Shown here in pieces: positions 38,868 through 45,562 of a stretch of 45,562 bases of DNA. The stretch spans positions 1 to 45,562 of the forward strand of contig NZ_JAATVW010000029.1 in assembly GCF_011947225.1 (NCBI RefSeq), in the 5' to 3' direction. Position 1 is the stretch's first letter; each line of letters begins with the position of its first letter. The DNA is from Planosporangium flavigriseum. Lineage in GTDB: Bacteria; Actinomycetota; Actinomycetes; Mycobacteriales; Micromonosporaceae. Both the position numbers and the translations under genes were made by a program. The notes under the pieces were generated by a model that ran no database searches, was not told the origin of the DNA, and saw only the letters and a list, made by a program, of their open reading frames with translations.

Positions 38868-41057
38868 TCAGGTCGACTCGACCGTCACCGGCACGCCATT
38901 GAGCACCGCGGTACCCGACAAGGGATCCACCCGCAGGTCGTCGGTGAGCCGGTTGGCGTTGACCCCCGCGGTTCCGGCGGCGACGGAAAGCTCCACACCC
39001 GGCAGGTCATGACCCCAGCCGTGCGGGATGCTCACCACGCCCGGCGCGATGTCGTCGGTGACCTCGACGGTGAGCTCAACCCGGCCGACCCGGGAGGAGA
39101 CCCGCGCCTTCCCGCCGTTCACCAACCCGAGCCGCGCCGCGTCGGCCCGGTTGACCACGACCGTGCACAGCTCGCGGCCTTTCACCAGCGCCGGCACGTT
39201 GTGCATCCAGGAGTTGTTGGAGCGCAGGTGCCGCCGGCCGACGACGACGAAATCCCCCGACTCCGGTGCCGGCGCGGCAGCGAGTGCGCGGACCTCGTCG
39301 GCGATCGGCTGCGGACACAGCTCGATCCGCCCCGACGGCGTACGCAGGATCTCCGGGATACGCGGCGTGAGCGGACCGAGGTCGACCCCGTGCGGCTGCT
39401 CACGCAGCCGGGCCAGGTTCAAGCCATCGGGTACGCGGCCGAAGCCGTCGCCGTACGCCCCCGTCCGCAGCCGCAGGTCGACCAGCCGTTCGGCGGCGGT
39501 GTCGCCGGTCAGCAGCGCCGGGTCGGCCCCGAGCTTCGCGCAGGCCTGCCGCAGTTCGCCGTCCTGCCAGGCCTCCACGTCGGCGCGCCAACCCAGGCCG
39601 GCGAAGATGGCCATCAGGCGCAGGTAGATCTCGCACTCGTCACGCATCTCCCCGTCCAGCGGCAGAACCGGCGGCGAGAAGTTGGCGACGTTGCGTACGG
39701 CGAACCCGTAGAACGCGACGTCGTAATGGGCGCCGCGGCTGGGCGGAGGCGGCGGCAGGATCACGTCGGCGTGCCGCGACGTCTCGTTGACATACGGGTC
39801 GACGCTGACGACGAAGTCGAGCGTCGAGATCGCGCGGGACAGCCGGTCGGCGTTGGGTACCGACGACGCGGGGTTACCCGCCACCGTGACCAGCGCGCGG
39901 ACCTGCCCCTCCCCGGGCGTCTCGATCTCGTCGGCGAGCGTGACGGCCGGGAACTCGCCGAGGACCTCGGGCAGCCCGCGTACCCGGCTGCGCCAGCGAC
40001 CGGTGGTGAAGCCCGGGCCGGTCCCCTTGCCCCGCCGGCTGTGCGCCGGCAGCGGGAACATCGCCCCGCCTGCCCGGTCGAGGTTGCCGGTGAGAATGTT
40101 CAGCACGTCGACCAGCCAACTCGTCACGGTGCCGCACGCGACGGTCGTGGTGCCGATTCGCCCGTACACGGCGGCGCGCGGCGCGGCGGCGAGCTGGGCC
40201 GTGAGCTCCCGGATGGTCGCCGCGTCCACCCCGCAGCGCGCGGCCATCGCCTCCGGGGTGAACGGCGCGACCAGATCCCGCACGGCGTCGACCCCGTTGA
40301 CATGCTCACTCAGCCTGCCCGGTTTCACCAGCCCGGCCCCGAACAGCGCATTCACCATGCCGAGAAGAAGGAACACATCGGTACCGGGCCGGATCGGCAC
40401 GTACTGGTCGGCCGCCTGAGCGGTGCGACTGCGGCGCGGGTCGACCACGACGAACCGGCCGCCACGCGCCCGCAGCGCCTTCAGCCGTCCGGGAGCGTCG
40501 GGAACCGTCCACAGGCTGCCGTTGGACGAGTAGGGGTCGGCGCCGAGTATCACCAGGAAGTCGGTGCGATCGATGTCGGGTACGGGGATCGCGAACGGGC
40601 CGCCGAACAGGTATCCGCACGACACGTGCTTGGGCATCTGGTCGAGCGTCGAGGCGGTGTAGACGTTGCGCGAGCCGAGCGCCTTGCGCAGCAGGCCGGC
40701 GTAGAGGTTGCCGGCGAGCGTGTGCACGTTCGGGTTGCCGAGGTAGATCGCGACGGCGTCCCGGCCATGCTCAGAGATGATCCGGGTGAGGCCGGCGTCG
40801 ACCGCGGAGAACGCCTCGTCCCACCCGGCCGGCACGAGCGCGCCGTCCCGGCGGATCCGCGGGGTCCGCAGCCGGTCGGGGTCGGCGTCCAGTTCCCCGA
40901 ACGAGGCGCCCTTGGGGCAGATGAAGCCGTGGCTGAGCACGTCGTCGGCGTCCCCGCGGACGCGGGTGAGGCGGTCACCGGAGACGGTGAGCTCCAGGCC
41001 ACAGGTGGCTTCACACAGTGGACAGGTGGTGTACGCGGTGCGTGGTTGGTCGACCAT
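38868..41057 (-). CDS. Molybdopterin-dependent oxidoreductase (DMSO-reductase superfamily)
   Basis: 729 aa, cytoplasmic (no Tat signal). A [4Fe-4S] site is formed by Cys12, Cys15, Cys19 and Cys47 (TTCPLCEATCGLEL, FICPKG). Molybdopterin-binding regions follow: LVILGADPYSSNGSLW, VVVDPRRSRTAQAADQYVPI, and the C-terminal NRADAARLGLVNGGKARVSS domain. By eye the metal-ligand position of formate dehydrogenase (Sec140 in FdhF) aligns with Asp139 (ASTLDQMPKH), so formate dehydrogenase activity is unlikely. The redox partner and substrate are unknown. ATG 41057 lies 28 bp after the TetR gene, so it may be in the same transcript as the kinase/dehydrogenase pair. Confidence 0.88.
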   Translation of the reverse strand: MVDQPRTAYTTCPLCEATCGLELTVSGDRLTRVRGDADDVLSHGFICPKGASFGELDADPDRLRTPRIRRDGALVPAGWDEAFSAVDAGLTRIISEHGRDAVAIYLGNPNVHTLAGNLYAGLLRKALGSRNVYTASTLDQMPKHVSCGYLFGGPFAIPVPDIDRTDFLVILGADPYSSNGSLWTVPDAPGRLKALRARGGRFVVVDPRRSRTAQAADQYVPIRPGTDVFLLLGMVNALFGAGLVKPGRLSEHVNGVDAVRDLVAPFTPEAMAARCGVDAATIRELTAQLAAAPRAAVYGRIGTTTVACGTVTSWLVDVLNILTGNLDRAGGAMFPLPAHSRRGKGTGPGFTTGRWRSRVRGLPEVLGEFPAVTLADEIETPGEGQVRALVTVAGNPASSVPNADRLSRAISTLDFVVSVDPYVNETSRHADVILPPPPPSRGAHYDVAFYGFAVRNVANFSPPVLPLDGEMRDECEIYLRLMAIFAGLGWRADVEAWQDGELRQACAKLGADPALLTGDTAAERLVDLRLRTGAYGDGFGRVPDGLNLARLREQPHGVDLGPLTPRIPEILRTPSGRIELCPQPIADEVRALAAAPAPESGDFVVVGRRHLRSNNSWMHNVPALVKGRELCTVVVNRADAARLGLVNGGKARVSSRVGRVELTVEVTDDIAPGVVSIPHGWGHDLPGVELSVAAGTAGVNANRLTDDLRVDPLSGTAVLNGVPVTVEST

Positions 41058-41085
41058 GAACCCTCCCCGTCAAGTTACCGGCCAG

Positions 41086-41679
41086 TTAACCTTCTGCGAC
41101 CCCGGATGGCGAGAGCCCCGCAAGGACGAAGTCGGCGATCTCGTCGGCCAGTTGCCGGGGCGAGGTCGGGCCGCCGGGCTGGTACCACTGTGGCAACTGG
41201 TTGACGACGCCGAACACGACCAGCGTCACGGTGTCGGCCGAGGCGACGGCCGCGAAGGTTCCGTCCGCCTGCCCGCGCGCCACCAGGTCGCGGAACGCCT
41301 CGTGGTACCGGCGGCGCTGCGCCCGCAGCGCCGCCATCGGCTCGGTGGGGAGCTTGTGCATCTCCCGGGCGAACACCGCGGCCTCGGCCAGCCGTGCGGT
41401 GGTCGTCTCGACGAGGTCGACGATCAGCGCCCGGATGACGTCGCCGGGCACGCCACCAGCAGCCAGGATGCCGTCGAGGTGCGCCAACTGCTCGCTGATG
41501 AGCCGGTGGTAGATCTCGTACAGCAGGTCGTCCTTGGACCGGAAGTAGTGGTACATCGCGCCCTTGGTGACCGCAGCCCGCGCCACGATCTCCTGTACGG
41601 ACGTGGCGTCGAAGCCCTGGGTCGCGAACAGGCTGACCGCGGCATCGAGCAGCCTCCCCTGGACGGGGCTCAACGCCAT
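41086..41679 (-). CDS. TetR-family regulator
   Basis: 197 aa from ATG 41679. The HTH domain is at residues 8-55: [39 protein letters not shown] and [13 protein letters not shown]. The C-terminal ligand domain resembles regulators of acyl-CoA metabolism. The start lies inside the last codons of the dehydrogenase (10-bp overlap), so it is co-transcribed with the genes it probably controls, through the palindrome at 43893-43906. Confidence 0.93.
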
Positions 41680-42881
41680 CTGGCCAGCTCGCGGCGCGCC
41701 ACCGAGCGGCGGTGCACCTCGTCCGGCCCGTCGGCGAGCTGGAGGGTACGGGCGTGTGAGTACAGGTTGGCCAGCGGCGTGTCCTGGCTGACACCGGCCG
41801 CGCCGTGCGCCTGGATCGCCTTGTCGATGACCCACCGCGCGACCTCCGGCGCGACCACCTTGATCGCCGAGATCTCCATGGCCGCGCCCTTGTTGCCGAC
41901 CGTGTCCATCAGCCAGGCCGTCTTGAGCGTCAGCAGCCGCGCCTGCTCGATCCGGATGCGCGCTTCCGCGATCCACTCCTGCACCACGCCGTGCTGCGCG
42001 ATGGCGACGCCGAACGTCTGCCGGGACAGCACCCGCTGGCACATCAGCTCCAGCGCGCGCTCCGCCATGCCGATCAACCGCATGCAGTGGTGGATGCGCC
42101 CCGGCCCGAGGCGGGCCTGGGCGAGCGCGAAGCCCTCGTTCTCGGTACCGAGGAGATTCGCAGCGGGTACCCGGACGTTGTCGAATCCGATCTCGGCGTG
42201 CCCGCCGTGCGGGCCGTCGGTGTACCCGAAGACGGTCGTGGGGCGCACGATCGTCACCCCGGGGGTGTCCAGGGGTACGAGAATCATGCTGTGCCGGCGG
42301 TGCTTGGGCCCGTCGGGGTCGCTGACGCCCATCACGATGGAGACCTTGCAGCGCGGGTTCATCGCACCCGACGACCACCACTTGCGGCCGTTGATGACGT
42401 AGGAGTCGCCGTCACGCTCGATCCGGGTGGCGATGTTGGTGGCGTCGGAGCTGGCCACCTCCGGCTCGGTCATCGAGAAGCAGGAGCGGATCTCGCCGTC
42501 GAGCAGGGGCTTCAGCCAGCGCTCCTGCTGCTCCGGCGTGCCGAACATGGCCAGGATCTCCATGTTGCCGGTGTCCGGCGCGGCGCAGTTCATCGCCTCC
42601 GGTGCGATCAGCGGGCTGCGGCCGGACAGCTCCGCGATCGGCGCGTACTCCAGGTTGGACAGTCCGGCGCCGAACTCGGAGTGCGGCAGGAACAGGTTCC
42701 ACAGGCCGCGCTTGCGCGCCTCCGCCTTCAGCTCCTCCATGATCGGCGGGGCATCCCACTCGCCGGGGCGCTGCGCGACCTGCTCTTCGAACATCTTCTC
42801 CGCCGGGTACACGCAGTCGCGCAGGAACTCCGCGGCTTTTTCGTGCATCTCCTTCGCGCGATCGCTGAATGCGAAGTCCAT
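41670..42881 (-). CDS. Acyl-CoA dehydrogenase (ACAD10/11-like)
   Basis: 403 aa flavoprotein. Typical segments: [20 protein letters not shown], the FAD/substrate loop [40 protein letters not shown], and the C-terminal [20 protein letters not shown] with [10 protein letters not shown]. The sequence type is that of the long-chain ACADs related to the ACAD domain of human ACAD10/11 and bacterial relatives such as LvaC. It follows the APH-like kinase by 4 bp, mirroring the kinase-dehydrogenase fusion in the animal proteins. It probably oxidises or removes phosphate from a phosphorylated hydroxyacyl-CoA; this is inferred from context. Confidence 0.92.
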
Positions 42882-42885
42882 CTGG

Positions 42886-43878
42886 TTACTCCCCTAGAGT
42901 CGCGGCAGCTCGTTCGATGAGCTGCGGCACGGCCGGCCCGAACGTCTCGAACCCCGCGCCGACGGTCTTGCCCTGCAGGTAGCGGGCGTGGATGCCTTCA
43001 CTGATGACGGCGAGCTTGTAGTTGCCGAAGGCGACATACCAGTTCAGCCGCGCGACGTCGATGCCCGTCGCCGCCGCGTAGCGCGCCGCAAGCTCCGCAC
43101 CGGTCGGAAAACCACGGGGTACGGGCGGCAGCAGGCTCAACTGCGCCAGGTCGGTGTACACGACGAGCAGCCCCACGTCGGCGAGCGGATCACCGATCGT
43201 GGCCATCTCCCAGTCCATGACCGCGAGGATGGCGCTCAGGTCGTGGGAGAACATGACGTTGTCGAGGCGGTAGTCGCCGTGCACGATCCCCGCGCGGGGC
43301 GAGTCCGGGAGCTCCTTGGCCAGCCGTTCCGTTACCTGTTCAAGAAGTGGCAATTCACGCGTCTTCGAGCGCTCCCACTGCTGGTGCCAACGCCGTACCT
43401 GCCGCTCCAGATAGCCCTCGGGGCGCCCGAAGTCGGCGAGGCCGACCTCGGAGTGGTCGACGCCGTGCAGCCGGACCAGCAGGTCGATCAGCTTCTCCCC
43501 ACACTGCGAAGCAGCCTCGGGGCCGATGTTTGCGCCTCTCACGACGATGCCGTCGACGTACTCCATGACGTAGAACGGCGCGCCGATCACGTCCGCGTCC
43601 GGGCACAGCAGCAGCGACTCCGGTACCGGGAACCCGACCTGCGCCAGCGCGGTAATCACCCGGTACTCCCGGGCCATGTCGTGCGCGGACGGCAGGACGT
43701 GCCCGAGCGGCGGGCGCCGGAGAACAACCTGCTTCGTCCCGTCGGTCACGACGTACGTGAGGTTTGATCTCCCGCCACTGATCACCGAGGCGGTGAGCGG
43801 ACCGGTCAGCCCCGCCTGCGCGAGGTAGGGCTCGGCTCGCGTGAGATCGAGCCCGGGTGGACTGGTGTCGGATGCCAC
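42886..43878 (-). CDS. APH-family kinase, probable hydroxyacyl-CoA kinase
   Basis: 330 aa from GTG 43878 (GGAGGAGG 4 nt upstream). Aminoglycoside-phosphotransferase fold: [20 protein letters not shown] nucleotide loop with VVLRRPP lysine region, catalytic loop [17 protein letters not shown] (about residues 205-221), and metal-binding [17 protein letters not shown]. This subtype, with the DWE-ATIGDPL block, is found fused to or next to acyl-CoA dehydrogenases (ACAD10/11, LvaA). An aminoglycoside resistance role is unlikely. It is the first gene of the operon with the dehydrogenase, TetR and perhaps the molybdo-enzyme. Confidence 0.9.
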
Positions 43879-43892
43879 TGCGCCTCCTCCGT

Positions 43893-43906
43893 ACCGACCG
43901 GTCGGT
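43893..43906. promoter_or_regulatory. TetR-type operator palindrome
   Basis: The perfect 14-bp palindrome ACCGACCGGTCGGT lies directly upstream of the kinase ribosome-binding site. It is of the kind bound by TetR regulators of fatty-acid and acyl-CoA genes in actinobacteria. The operon's own TetR is the obvious ligand. Confidence 0.72.
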
Positions 43907-43967
43907 TTGGACCGTAGCCGCGTATCGACGGGGGTGTCAACGGTCGGAATTGGCAGAGCGAGTGGCG

Positions 43968-44006
43968 GGATTTCCCCGTTATATCCGCCGTATAACGTGG
44001 AAATCC
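43968..44006. promoter_or_regulatory. 39-bp interrupted palindrome between divergent operons
   Basis: Arms GGATTTCC-c-CGTTATA (43968-43983) and TATAACG-t-GGAAATCC (43991-44006) match at 15 of 16 positions around the spacer TCCGCCG. TATAAC on each strand resembles a -10 element, so the site could be an operator covering two divergent promoters. It is markedly AT-richer than its surroundings. Confidence 0.65.
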
Positions 44007-44112
44007 GACCACCGGTGTGGCCAGTCGCCCGGGCGCCACCGCGCAGACGGGCCGTGCTGATCATCTGCTTAACTCTTCCCGAAGACACCCGAAGACCAGA
44101 CGGGAGCTCATC

Positions 44113-44736
44113 GTGCAGCACCAGGAGATCGGCGCCTGGCTCGACGACCTCGCCTCCTCGGCGCCGGCGCCAGGCGGTGGCGCCGTCGCCGCGATGCAGG
44201 TGGCCATGGCCGCCGGCCTGGTGGAGATGGTCACGAACCTGACCATCGGAAACCCGCGGTACGCCGAGCACGAGCAGACCATGGTCGAGGCCCGGGAGCA
44301 GGCCGCGGAGCAGCGGCGCCTGGCGCTCCAACTGGCCGAGGACGACGCCACCGCCTTCACCGCGGTTACGGACGCGTACAAGTTGCCAAAGTCCACGGAT
44401 GAGGAGAAGGCCGCCCGTTCCGCCCGGATCCAGCAGGCCTTGCTCGGGGCTGCGGAGGTGCCGTGGCGGACCGCGCAGGCCGCCGCGACAGTTCTTGACC
44501 TCGCCGAAAGAATTCTTCCCGGCGCGAACGTCAACGTGCTCTCCGATGTTGCGGTGGCTGCCTCCTCGGCTCGCGCGGGCCTGGAGGCCGCAATCGTCAA
44601 CATCGAAGTCAACCGGACTGCCATCAAGGACGAGGACGAGCGGGCCCGCCTCGGCGACGCGGTCGCCGCGATCGAGCGTGACCTCGACCGGGCGAGCGCC
44701 GTGGTGGCTTCCGTACGGAAGGGACTGAGCCGATGA
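44113..44736 (+). CDS. Cyclodeaminase/cyclohydrolase family protein (FTCD C-terminal domain, Fch-like)
   Basis: 207 aa from GTG 44113 (GGGAG 6 nt upstream). The FTCD_C fold: WLDDLASSAPAPGGGAVAAM with the PAPGGG turn (18-23), MVTNLTIGNPRYAEHEQTM, LAEDDATAFTAVTDAYKLPK with the conserved Asp, and NVLSDVAVAASSARAGLEAA, then VNIEVN. Standalone members act as methenyl-tetrahydrofolate cyclohydrolase (Fch/FchA) or formimino-THF cyclodeaminase. No formiminotransferase is attached. It overlaps the FolD homologue by ATGA, so cyclohydrolase is the more likely role. Confidence 0.9.
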   Translation: MQHQEIGAWLDDLASSAPAPGGGAVAAMQVAMAAGLVEMVTNLTIGNPRYAEHEQTMVEAREQAAEQRRLALQLAEDDATAFTAVTDAYKLPKSTDEEKAARSARIQQALLGAAEVPWRTAQAAATVLDLAERILPGANVNVLSDVAVAASSARAGLEAAIVNIEVNRTAIKDEDERARLGDAVAAIERDLDRASAVVASVRKGLSR

Positions 44737-45562
44737 CCCTCATCGACGGACGCGCGATCTCGAAGGCGATCCTCGAGACGGTGACCGCGGACGTGGAGGC
44801 GCTCCGGGCCGCCGGTACGACGCCGACGCTCGCGATCGTCGTGCCGACCGACGACGAGGCGACGGCCTGGTACGTGCGCTCGATCGTCCGGGCCGCGGAA
44901 CGGGTCGGCATCACCGCCCGCCAGATCGATCTGCACGGCACGACCGCCCCGGAGCTGATCACCGAGCTCGCCGCGCTCTCGGCCGACCCGGGCGTGCACG
45001 GGATCATCTGTCAGACGCCGCTGCCGAAGGGCGTCACTCTCGACCAGATCGGCCAGCACATCGCGCCGGCCAAGGACGTCGACGGCGCCAACCCGGAGAG
45101 CCTCGGCCGGCTCGCCGCCGGGCTGCCCGCGTTCGCGCCGGCGACCGCGCAGGCGGTGGTCGAGATCCTGCAGCGGGAGCAGGTGCCGCTGGCGGGCGCC
45201 GACGTGGTCGTCGTGGGCCGCAGCAACGTCGTCGGCAAGCCGGCTGCCCTGCTGCTGCTGGCCGAGAACGCGACCGTGACGATCTGCCACTCCCGTACCC
45301 GTGATCTCGCCGCCCACACCCGGCAGGGAGAGGTCCTGGTCGCCGCGGTGGGACGCGCGAAGATGCTGGGCGCCGACCACGTCAGGCCCGGTGCGGTCGT
45401 CATCGACGTGGGTACCAACCCGACCGAGGACGGCGGGCTCGTCGGCGACGTGGACACCGAGGCCGTGGAGTCGGTGGCGGCCGCGATCACGCCGGTTCCC
45501 GGCGGGGTCGGGCCGGTGACCACCGCGCTGCTGCTGCGCAACGTGGTCACCGCCGCGCGGGG
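44733..45562 (+). CDS. folD: FolD-like methylene-THF dehydrogenase lacking the cyclohydrolase lysine (partial, runs off the end)
   Basis: 276 residues are visible and the stop lies beyond the window. Family motifs are GIICQTPLPKGV, KDVDGANPESLG, VVVGRSNVVGKPAALLL, TICHSRT, VIDVGTN and ITPVPGGVGPVT. In FolD the key catalytic lysine follows a Tyr in YVxxK (Lys56 in human, Lys54 in E. coli); here Tyr47 is kept but the lysine position is Ile51 (TAWYVRSIVRAAERVGI). The PCTPxG segment is also altered (FAPATAQAV). Loss of that lysine abolishes cyclohydrolase but not dehydrogenase activity in mutants of the human enzyme. The Fch-like gene just upstream could supply the missing step. Confidence 0.9.
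   Translation, partial: MTLIDGRAISKAILETVTADVEALRAAGTTPTLAIVVPTDDEATAWYVRSIVRAAERVGITARQIDLHGTTAPELITELAALSADPGVHGIICQTPLPKGVTLDQIGQHIAPAKDVDGANPESLGRLAAGLPAFAPATAQAVVEILQREQVPLAGADVVVVGRSNVVGKPAALLLLAENATVTICHSRTRDLAAHTRQGEVLVAAVGRAKMLGADHVRPGAVVIDVGTNPTEDGGLVGDVDTEAVESVAAAITPVPGGVGPVTTALLLRNVVTAAR

Follow-up and report, generated by a model that had tools for sequence, protein, structure and literature searches.

Whether one enzyme or two carry 5,10-methylene-THF to 10-formyl-THF in Planosporangium flavigriseum is the question raised by the 3' end of the window (the whole stretch of DNA analyzed, 45,562 nucleotides). A folD gene there follows directly behind a gene of the FTCD_C family, and the initial annotation had read the two as a bifunctional reaction divided between two proteins. 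Its structural claims were confirmed: the ATGA overlap of the two genes by the sequence and open reading frame coordinates, the family of the upstream gene by Pfam (PF04961, 191 bits, the only Pfam match), and the Ile51 at the essential lysine position together with the altered PCTPxG segment by alignment to Escherichia coli FolD. The features of the pair were:

44103 to 44106, plus strand: GGAG, a plausible ribosome-binding site judging by the sequence, 6 bases 5' of the GTG start.
44113 to 44736, plus strand: stand-alone FTCD_C protein, 207 aa, GTG start, FchA-like; proposed methenyl-THF cyclohydrolase (PF04961, PDB relative, conserved residues).
44733 to 44736, plus strand: ATGA, FTCD_C stop overlapping the FolD start; translational coupling presumed from the overlap.
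44733 to 45560, plus strand: FolD without the catalytic lysine, 276 codons readable, 3' end missing; proposed monofunctional methylene-THF dehydrogenase (Pfam, alignment, model).
44871 to 44885, plus strand: Tyr47-Val-Arg-Ser-Ile51, the YxxxK motif with Ile for Lys (alignment).
45012 to 45014, plus strand: Gln94, equivalent to E. coli Gln98, kept (alignment).
45138 to 45155, plus strand: PATAQA where PCTPxG is expected (alignment).

The FolD end is missing because the contig stops at 45562; in the alignment, FolD of the nearest relatives stops one residue past the last residue of the window, and some others run several residues further. The adjoining genes on the minus strand (38868-44331) encode an APH-family phosphotransferase, an acyl-CoA dehydrogenase, a TetR regulator and a molybdopterin oxidoreductase, and no folate link was seen among them. 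No fhs gene lies directly 5' of the pair.

The downstream protein belongs to the FolD family by its domains and fold. PF00763 (101 bits) and PF02882 (204 bits) were both matched above the curated cut-offs, and the predicted structure was that of a full FolD (mean pLDDT 95.4), with 4b4u as the best PDB match (TM 0.94) and solved FolDs matched over its length. Tyr50-Lys54 of E. coli (YVASK) aligned with Tyr47-Ile51 (YVRSI), which puts Ile51 (codon 44883-44885) at the position of Lys54. E. coli PCTPRG is PATAQA here, and the place of E. coli Ser65 is substituted. The equivalents of Gln98 and Asp121 were retained, as were GRSxxVGxP, Tyr47, Gln94 and the KDVDG aspartate. Of the residues expected of a bifunctional FolD, Gln98 and Asp121 are therefore present, and the catalytic lysine and the PCTPxG segment are not. 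The 25 of 30 matching NCBIfam models that were listed were all bifunctional FolD models, and the protein scored below every cut-off listed. Passages of two papers (PMC6443876, PMC3368264) assign a catalytic role to the human equivalents of Lys54 and Gln98 (Lys56 and Gln100) and name the lysine as a possible proton carrier during cyclohydrolysis. As a computational study could not, in the portion available, settle the role of the lysine in cyclohydrolysis (PMC9173628), its loss need not abolish cyclohydrolase activity.

For the upstream protein, the best PDB relative was 7vg4, named methenyl-THF cyclohydrolase (E 7.1e-41, 143 bits); animal FTCD (1tt9) and 1o5h, named formimino-THF cyclodeaminase, were weaker, with 72 bits against FTCD. 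Residues conserved in 166 FTCD_C copies (e.g. P16-G19, D74, R98, N135, D141, N163) were also found in the window copy. Its score against the NCBIfam FchA model NF045657 was 172.9 bits, below the equivalog cut-off of 275. The domain stands alone, as in FchA, and the locus combines adjacent genes with altered FolD cyclohydrolase residues, as in a split FolD/FchA pair.

The arrangement recurs in relatives. All 13 actinobacterial loci encoding a relative (L005-L017) have Ile or Leu at the lysine place, and 12 of them have FTCD_C directly upstream of FolD, so the combination in the window is not a chance one. The exception was L013, from a Kutzneria metagenome-assembled genome, whose FolD is of the Ile type and whose 14.8 kb contain no FTCD_C; four other Kutzneria loci differ. 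Two further loci, L021 and L022, have Leu and no FTCD_C within the 14.8 kb locus. No third gene was common to all 20 long loci of relatives. In six of them (L015, L121, L122, L126, L130 and L131) a short open reading frame (cluster c2, open frames of 141-284 aa) lies directly downstream of FolD, no more than about 0.5 kb away, and a phosphofructokinase gene lies beyond it in all six; the copy in L122 had no Pfam match. The remaining loci carry other genes (transporters, RecA and others), and FTCD_C adjoins FolD despite differing surrounding genes between groups of genera. As no third gene was shared, the pair was treated as the unit.

The initial annotation had made the choice between a replacement and a specialized second pathway depend on whether the genome also encodes a normal FolD. 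The genome (5.72 Mb, 85 contigs, 99% complete) was searched at E 0.001, and two FolDs and two FTCD_C genes were found. A second folD thus exists (contig 78, 67046-67945, minus strand), but its motif is YERRV, with Val for the lysine, and Gln98 and Asp121 are replaced by Leu and Glu. It closes a set of adjoining genes in the order fhs-FTCD_C-folD (Fhs 68508-70190, FTCD_C 68029-68484). The second FTCD_C (G000:C78:68029-68484, L025) has Ala for two of the three PGGG glycines and scored 87.3 bits against the FchA model (cut-off 275), and its activity may therefore be reduced or altered. Both FolDs lack the lysine and sit directly behind FTCD_C, and the genome search yielded no FolD with the lysine. 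This argues for replacement of the bifunctional enzyme, with two split pairs in the genome, rather than for a specialized second pathway.

The family was then represented by 61 genomes, including this one, drawn evenly from a larger group, with adjacency of FolD and FTCD_C scored by Pfam coordinates. FolD was found above cut-off in 59 of 61 genomes (the two without it are 69% and 80% complete) and FTCD_C in 23, and all 87 FolD places above cut-off were inspected. The lysine was absent from 24/24 FolDs adjacent to FTCD_C (17 Ile, 6 Leu, 1 Val). Among the 63 non-adjacent FolDs, one was a fragment without the motif region and the lysine was present in 62/62 readable ones. Twelve of the 59 genomes with FolD, 96 to 100% complete, have no lysine FolD (G000, the genome of the window, and G004, G011, G013, G014, G021, G022, G035, G043, G046, G049 and G053), and FTCD_C is present in all twelve. 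Fhs was matched in 6/61 family genomes, and three of these six belong to the twelve. As the other nine, of which G004 and G013 are single-contig assemblies, have neither a lysine FolD nor an Fhs match, FTCD_C appears from gene content to be the only candidate seen there for making 10-formyl-THF; a methenyl-H4MPT cyclohydrolase or slow chemical hydrolysis would be conceivable alternatives.

The survey was extended to 197 genomes of Actinomycetota, with FTCD_C above cut-off in 67 and FolD in 191. Outside the family, 95 FolDs were inspected. All 38 adjacent to FTCD_C lacked the lysine, and all 57 non-adjacent ones had it (27 with FTCD_C elsewhere in the genome and 30 from FTCD_C-free genomes, the latter being the best-scoring and no random sample). 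Several FolDs of genomes with FTCD_C (e.g. G082, G104, G109, G141, G215) and those of about 100 FTCD_C-free genomes were left out. Across Actinomycetota, the lysine was absent in 62/62 adjacent FolDs inspected and kept in 119/119 readable non-adjacent ones.

Bacillota, as the phylum of L018 (an uncultured Eubacteriales) is named in this analysis, was represented by 119 genomes (FTCD_C above cut-off in 70, FolD in 119), and 96 FolDs were inspected. Where FTCD_C precedes FolD, 13/13 lacked the lysine. Where FolD comes first (n = 19), 17 kept the lysine with Gln98 changed to Glu and two lacked it, so that 17 of the 32 adjacent FolDs keep the lysine and carry this change. Judged from the alignment, Gln98 to Glu alters the same site of FTCD_C-adjacent FolDs in a different way. 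Where the genome has FTCD_C at another place (n = 42), 24 FolDs had Lys and Gln, 7 had Lys and Glu and 11 were without the lysine; in genomes without FTCD_C (n = 22), 20 had Lys and Gln and two lacked the lysine. The predicted correlation of lysine loss with FTCD_C adjacency across genomes therefore stood in Actinomycetota and is not universal.

In the three surveys together, Lys54 or Gln98 was changed in 94/94 adjacent FolDs, and both were present in 163/183 non-adjacent FolDs inspected. Gly145, the last PCTPxG position, was absent in 93/94 adjacent FolDs (92 Ala or Ser, one gap) and present in 162/168 intact non-adjacent ones (five from genomes outside the three surveys). Ser65 was found in 0/94 adjacent FolDs vs. 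93% of the intact non-adjacent ones.

Individual loci added several observations. The 17 FolD-first pairs of Bacillota that keep the lysine (e.g. L228, L229, L343) have Glu at Gln98 and lack Gly145. The two lysine-less FolDs from FTCD_C-free genomes were those of G280 (L383), where Ile replaces the lysine and no gene matched FTCD_C, and G319, where one of two FolDs has Gln at that place, again with no FTCD_C match. G280 has a second, distant FolD match (84 bits). Two FolD genes stand side by side in G291 C37, G331 C1 and G367 C72 (L359, L363, L367) and in G319 C2 (L384, with about 2.4 kb between them). In each case one copy carries Gln for the lysine and Glu for Asp121, and the other has Lys; such pairs possibly form a hetero-oligomeric FolD.

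We consider it very likely that labor is divided, FolD serving as dehydrogenase and FTCD_C as cyclohydrolase, and that the window pair and the second set have replaced the bifunctional FolD. The initial proposal of a divided reaction is thus supported, at the level of sequence, by the genome without a lysine FolD, the correlation in Actinomycetota and the nine of twelve genomes without Fhs. From the observed genes, their order and residues, their co-occurrence and the failure to find a lysine FolD, we infer activities as follows. The lysine-less FolD would oxidize 5,10-methylene-THF to 5,10-methenyl-THF with NAD(P), having lost the hydrolysis, and FTCD_C, as a stand-alone FchA-type cyclohydrolase, would open methenyl-THF to 10-formyl-THF, both reactions presumably running in this direction in the cell. 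The two genes would share a message, with translation coupled at the ATGA, and the proteins may be in physical contact.

That FTCD_C is instead a formimino-THF cyclodeaminase, feeding methenyl-THF from histidine or purine breakdown to a FolD still bifunctional through another residue in place of the lysine, is improbable, though it has some footing: in animal FTCD (1tt9) this domain is the cyclodeaminase, the window FolD retains both Gln98 and Asp121, and the part of the lysine in cyclohydrolysis is unsettled in the portion of PMC9173628 available. The formiminotransferase domain FTCD_N, fused or elsewhere, had no match in any of the 61 family genomes, that of the window included, and the same search returned a match in the control, Thermotoga maritima; the pair is therefore distinct from the histidine-degrading FTCD. 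Moreover, the nearest relative among solved structures is named a cyclohydrolase (143 vs. 72 bits for FTCD), and a cyclodeaminase gives no explanation for a lysine lost in Actinomycetota only beside FTCD_C (L013 excepted).

Less probable still is phylogenetic hitch-hiking, in which one old FolD lineage lost the lysine and sat beside FTCD_C by chance, with no functional link. It was weighed on a 293-row FolD tree from which columns 54 and 98 had been excluded. On it, 5 changes were counted for the lysine state, only 2 for the combined state of an alteration at Lys54 or Gln98, and 9 for FTCD_C adjacency (L013 taken as non-adjacent). The window clade forms a single branch (99 starred, 34 rows; 100 starred in a 65-row tree), and the second FolD of the genome lies on a different branch (99 starred). 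A single clade of all lysine-less FolDs was not rejected by the AU test (p-AU = 0.44), nor was joining the window clade with that of the second FolD (p = 0.24), and independent losses of the lysine were accordingly not supported. The independent-pairs sign test was without power, there being too few events for significance. The large counts are not independent, since the pattern stems from very few events on the trees; the correlation holds in counts and rests on few evolutionary events. All of this would suit hitch-hiking. Against it, twelve family genomes have only such a FolD, nine of them without Fhs, so the lysine-less FolD should do essential work there. Among 28 rows, a canonical FolD alongside the pair was gained or lost 4 times, with at least 2 of these changes on starred branches, and FTCD_C keeps adjoining FolD while the surrounding genes vary. 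A FolD that is no folate dehydrogenase and has taken a new substrate, with FTCD_C as partner in another pathway, is hardly credible: the PATAQA active-site segment and the substitution at the Ser65 place would allow it, but such FolDs are the sole ones in 12 genomes, GRSxxVGxP, Tyr47, Gln94 and the KDVDG aspartate are retained, and the model matches FolD over its full length.

With the division of labor as the preferred reading, a wider proposal seems rather probable, at a lower grade of confidence: that a FolD subfamily (Gly145 to Ala or Ser, Ser65 lost, Lys54 or Gln98 changed) gave cyclohydrolysis to FchA, that the actinomycete pair repeatedly ousted the bifunctional enzyme, and that FchA there is the sole 10-formyl-THF route, essential for purines. 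If true, natural variation would reveal the FolD residues that serve cyclohydrolysis alone. The residues that differ beside FTCD_C (Lys54, Gln98, Gly145 and Ser65) bear on the question of FolD cyclohydrolysis as raised in the available part of PMC9173628. Automatic annotation treats FolD as bifunctional; the label is probably wrong for this lineage, and likewise for metabolic models that rely on it. In genomes with the split pair only and no Fhs, actinomycete genetics could test what FchA does.

Among known systems, the anaerobe Clostridium perfringens, which has Fhs, reportedly has a FolD without cyclohydrolase activity and a separate FchA that supplies it. That description resembles the monofunctional FolD and separate FchA proposed here from the genes; unlike C. 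perfringens, P. flavigriseum is an actinomycete, carries two pairs and yielded no lysine FolD, and in nine family genomes the split arrangement occurs without an Fhs match. Yeast Mtd1 is a monofunctional NAD-dependent dehydrogenase with the FolD fold and without the lysine, in an organism that also keeps trifunctional enzymes; it is not known to have an FTCD_C partner. The FolD of P. flavigriseum would likewise be a monofunctional dehydrogenase. MtdA of Methylobacterium extorquens is only distantly related to FolD. MtdA and Fch of that organism are a separate dehydrogenase and cyclohydrolase in separate genes, as here, according to a passage of PMC9618320. The separate FchA of C. perfringens is credited to Aluri et al. 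(2016) in the part of PMC7219735 available. Fch is mentioned for acetogens in an excerpt of PMC7325909, where fch is reported absent from Wood-Ljungdahl Actinobacteria, and fhs, fchA and folD of Clostridium autoethanogenum have neighboring locus tags in an excerpt of PMC9618320. The second set of P. flavigriseum (fhs-FTCD_C-folD) has this gene content, whereas the window pair has no fhs directly before it. In the portion available of a study that surveys the FolD family across life (PMC11064299), neither FchA nor lysine occurs as a term. Among the open-access literature matches listed (subscription journals being mostly outside), only clostridial, acetogen and methylotroph cases appeared, with no report of the split pair in these actinomycetes. 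The division of labor is thus already known from clostridia and acetogens; by the same open-access matches, the Ile/Leu type appears to be new, and so does the replacement of the bifunctional enzyme in actinomycetes.
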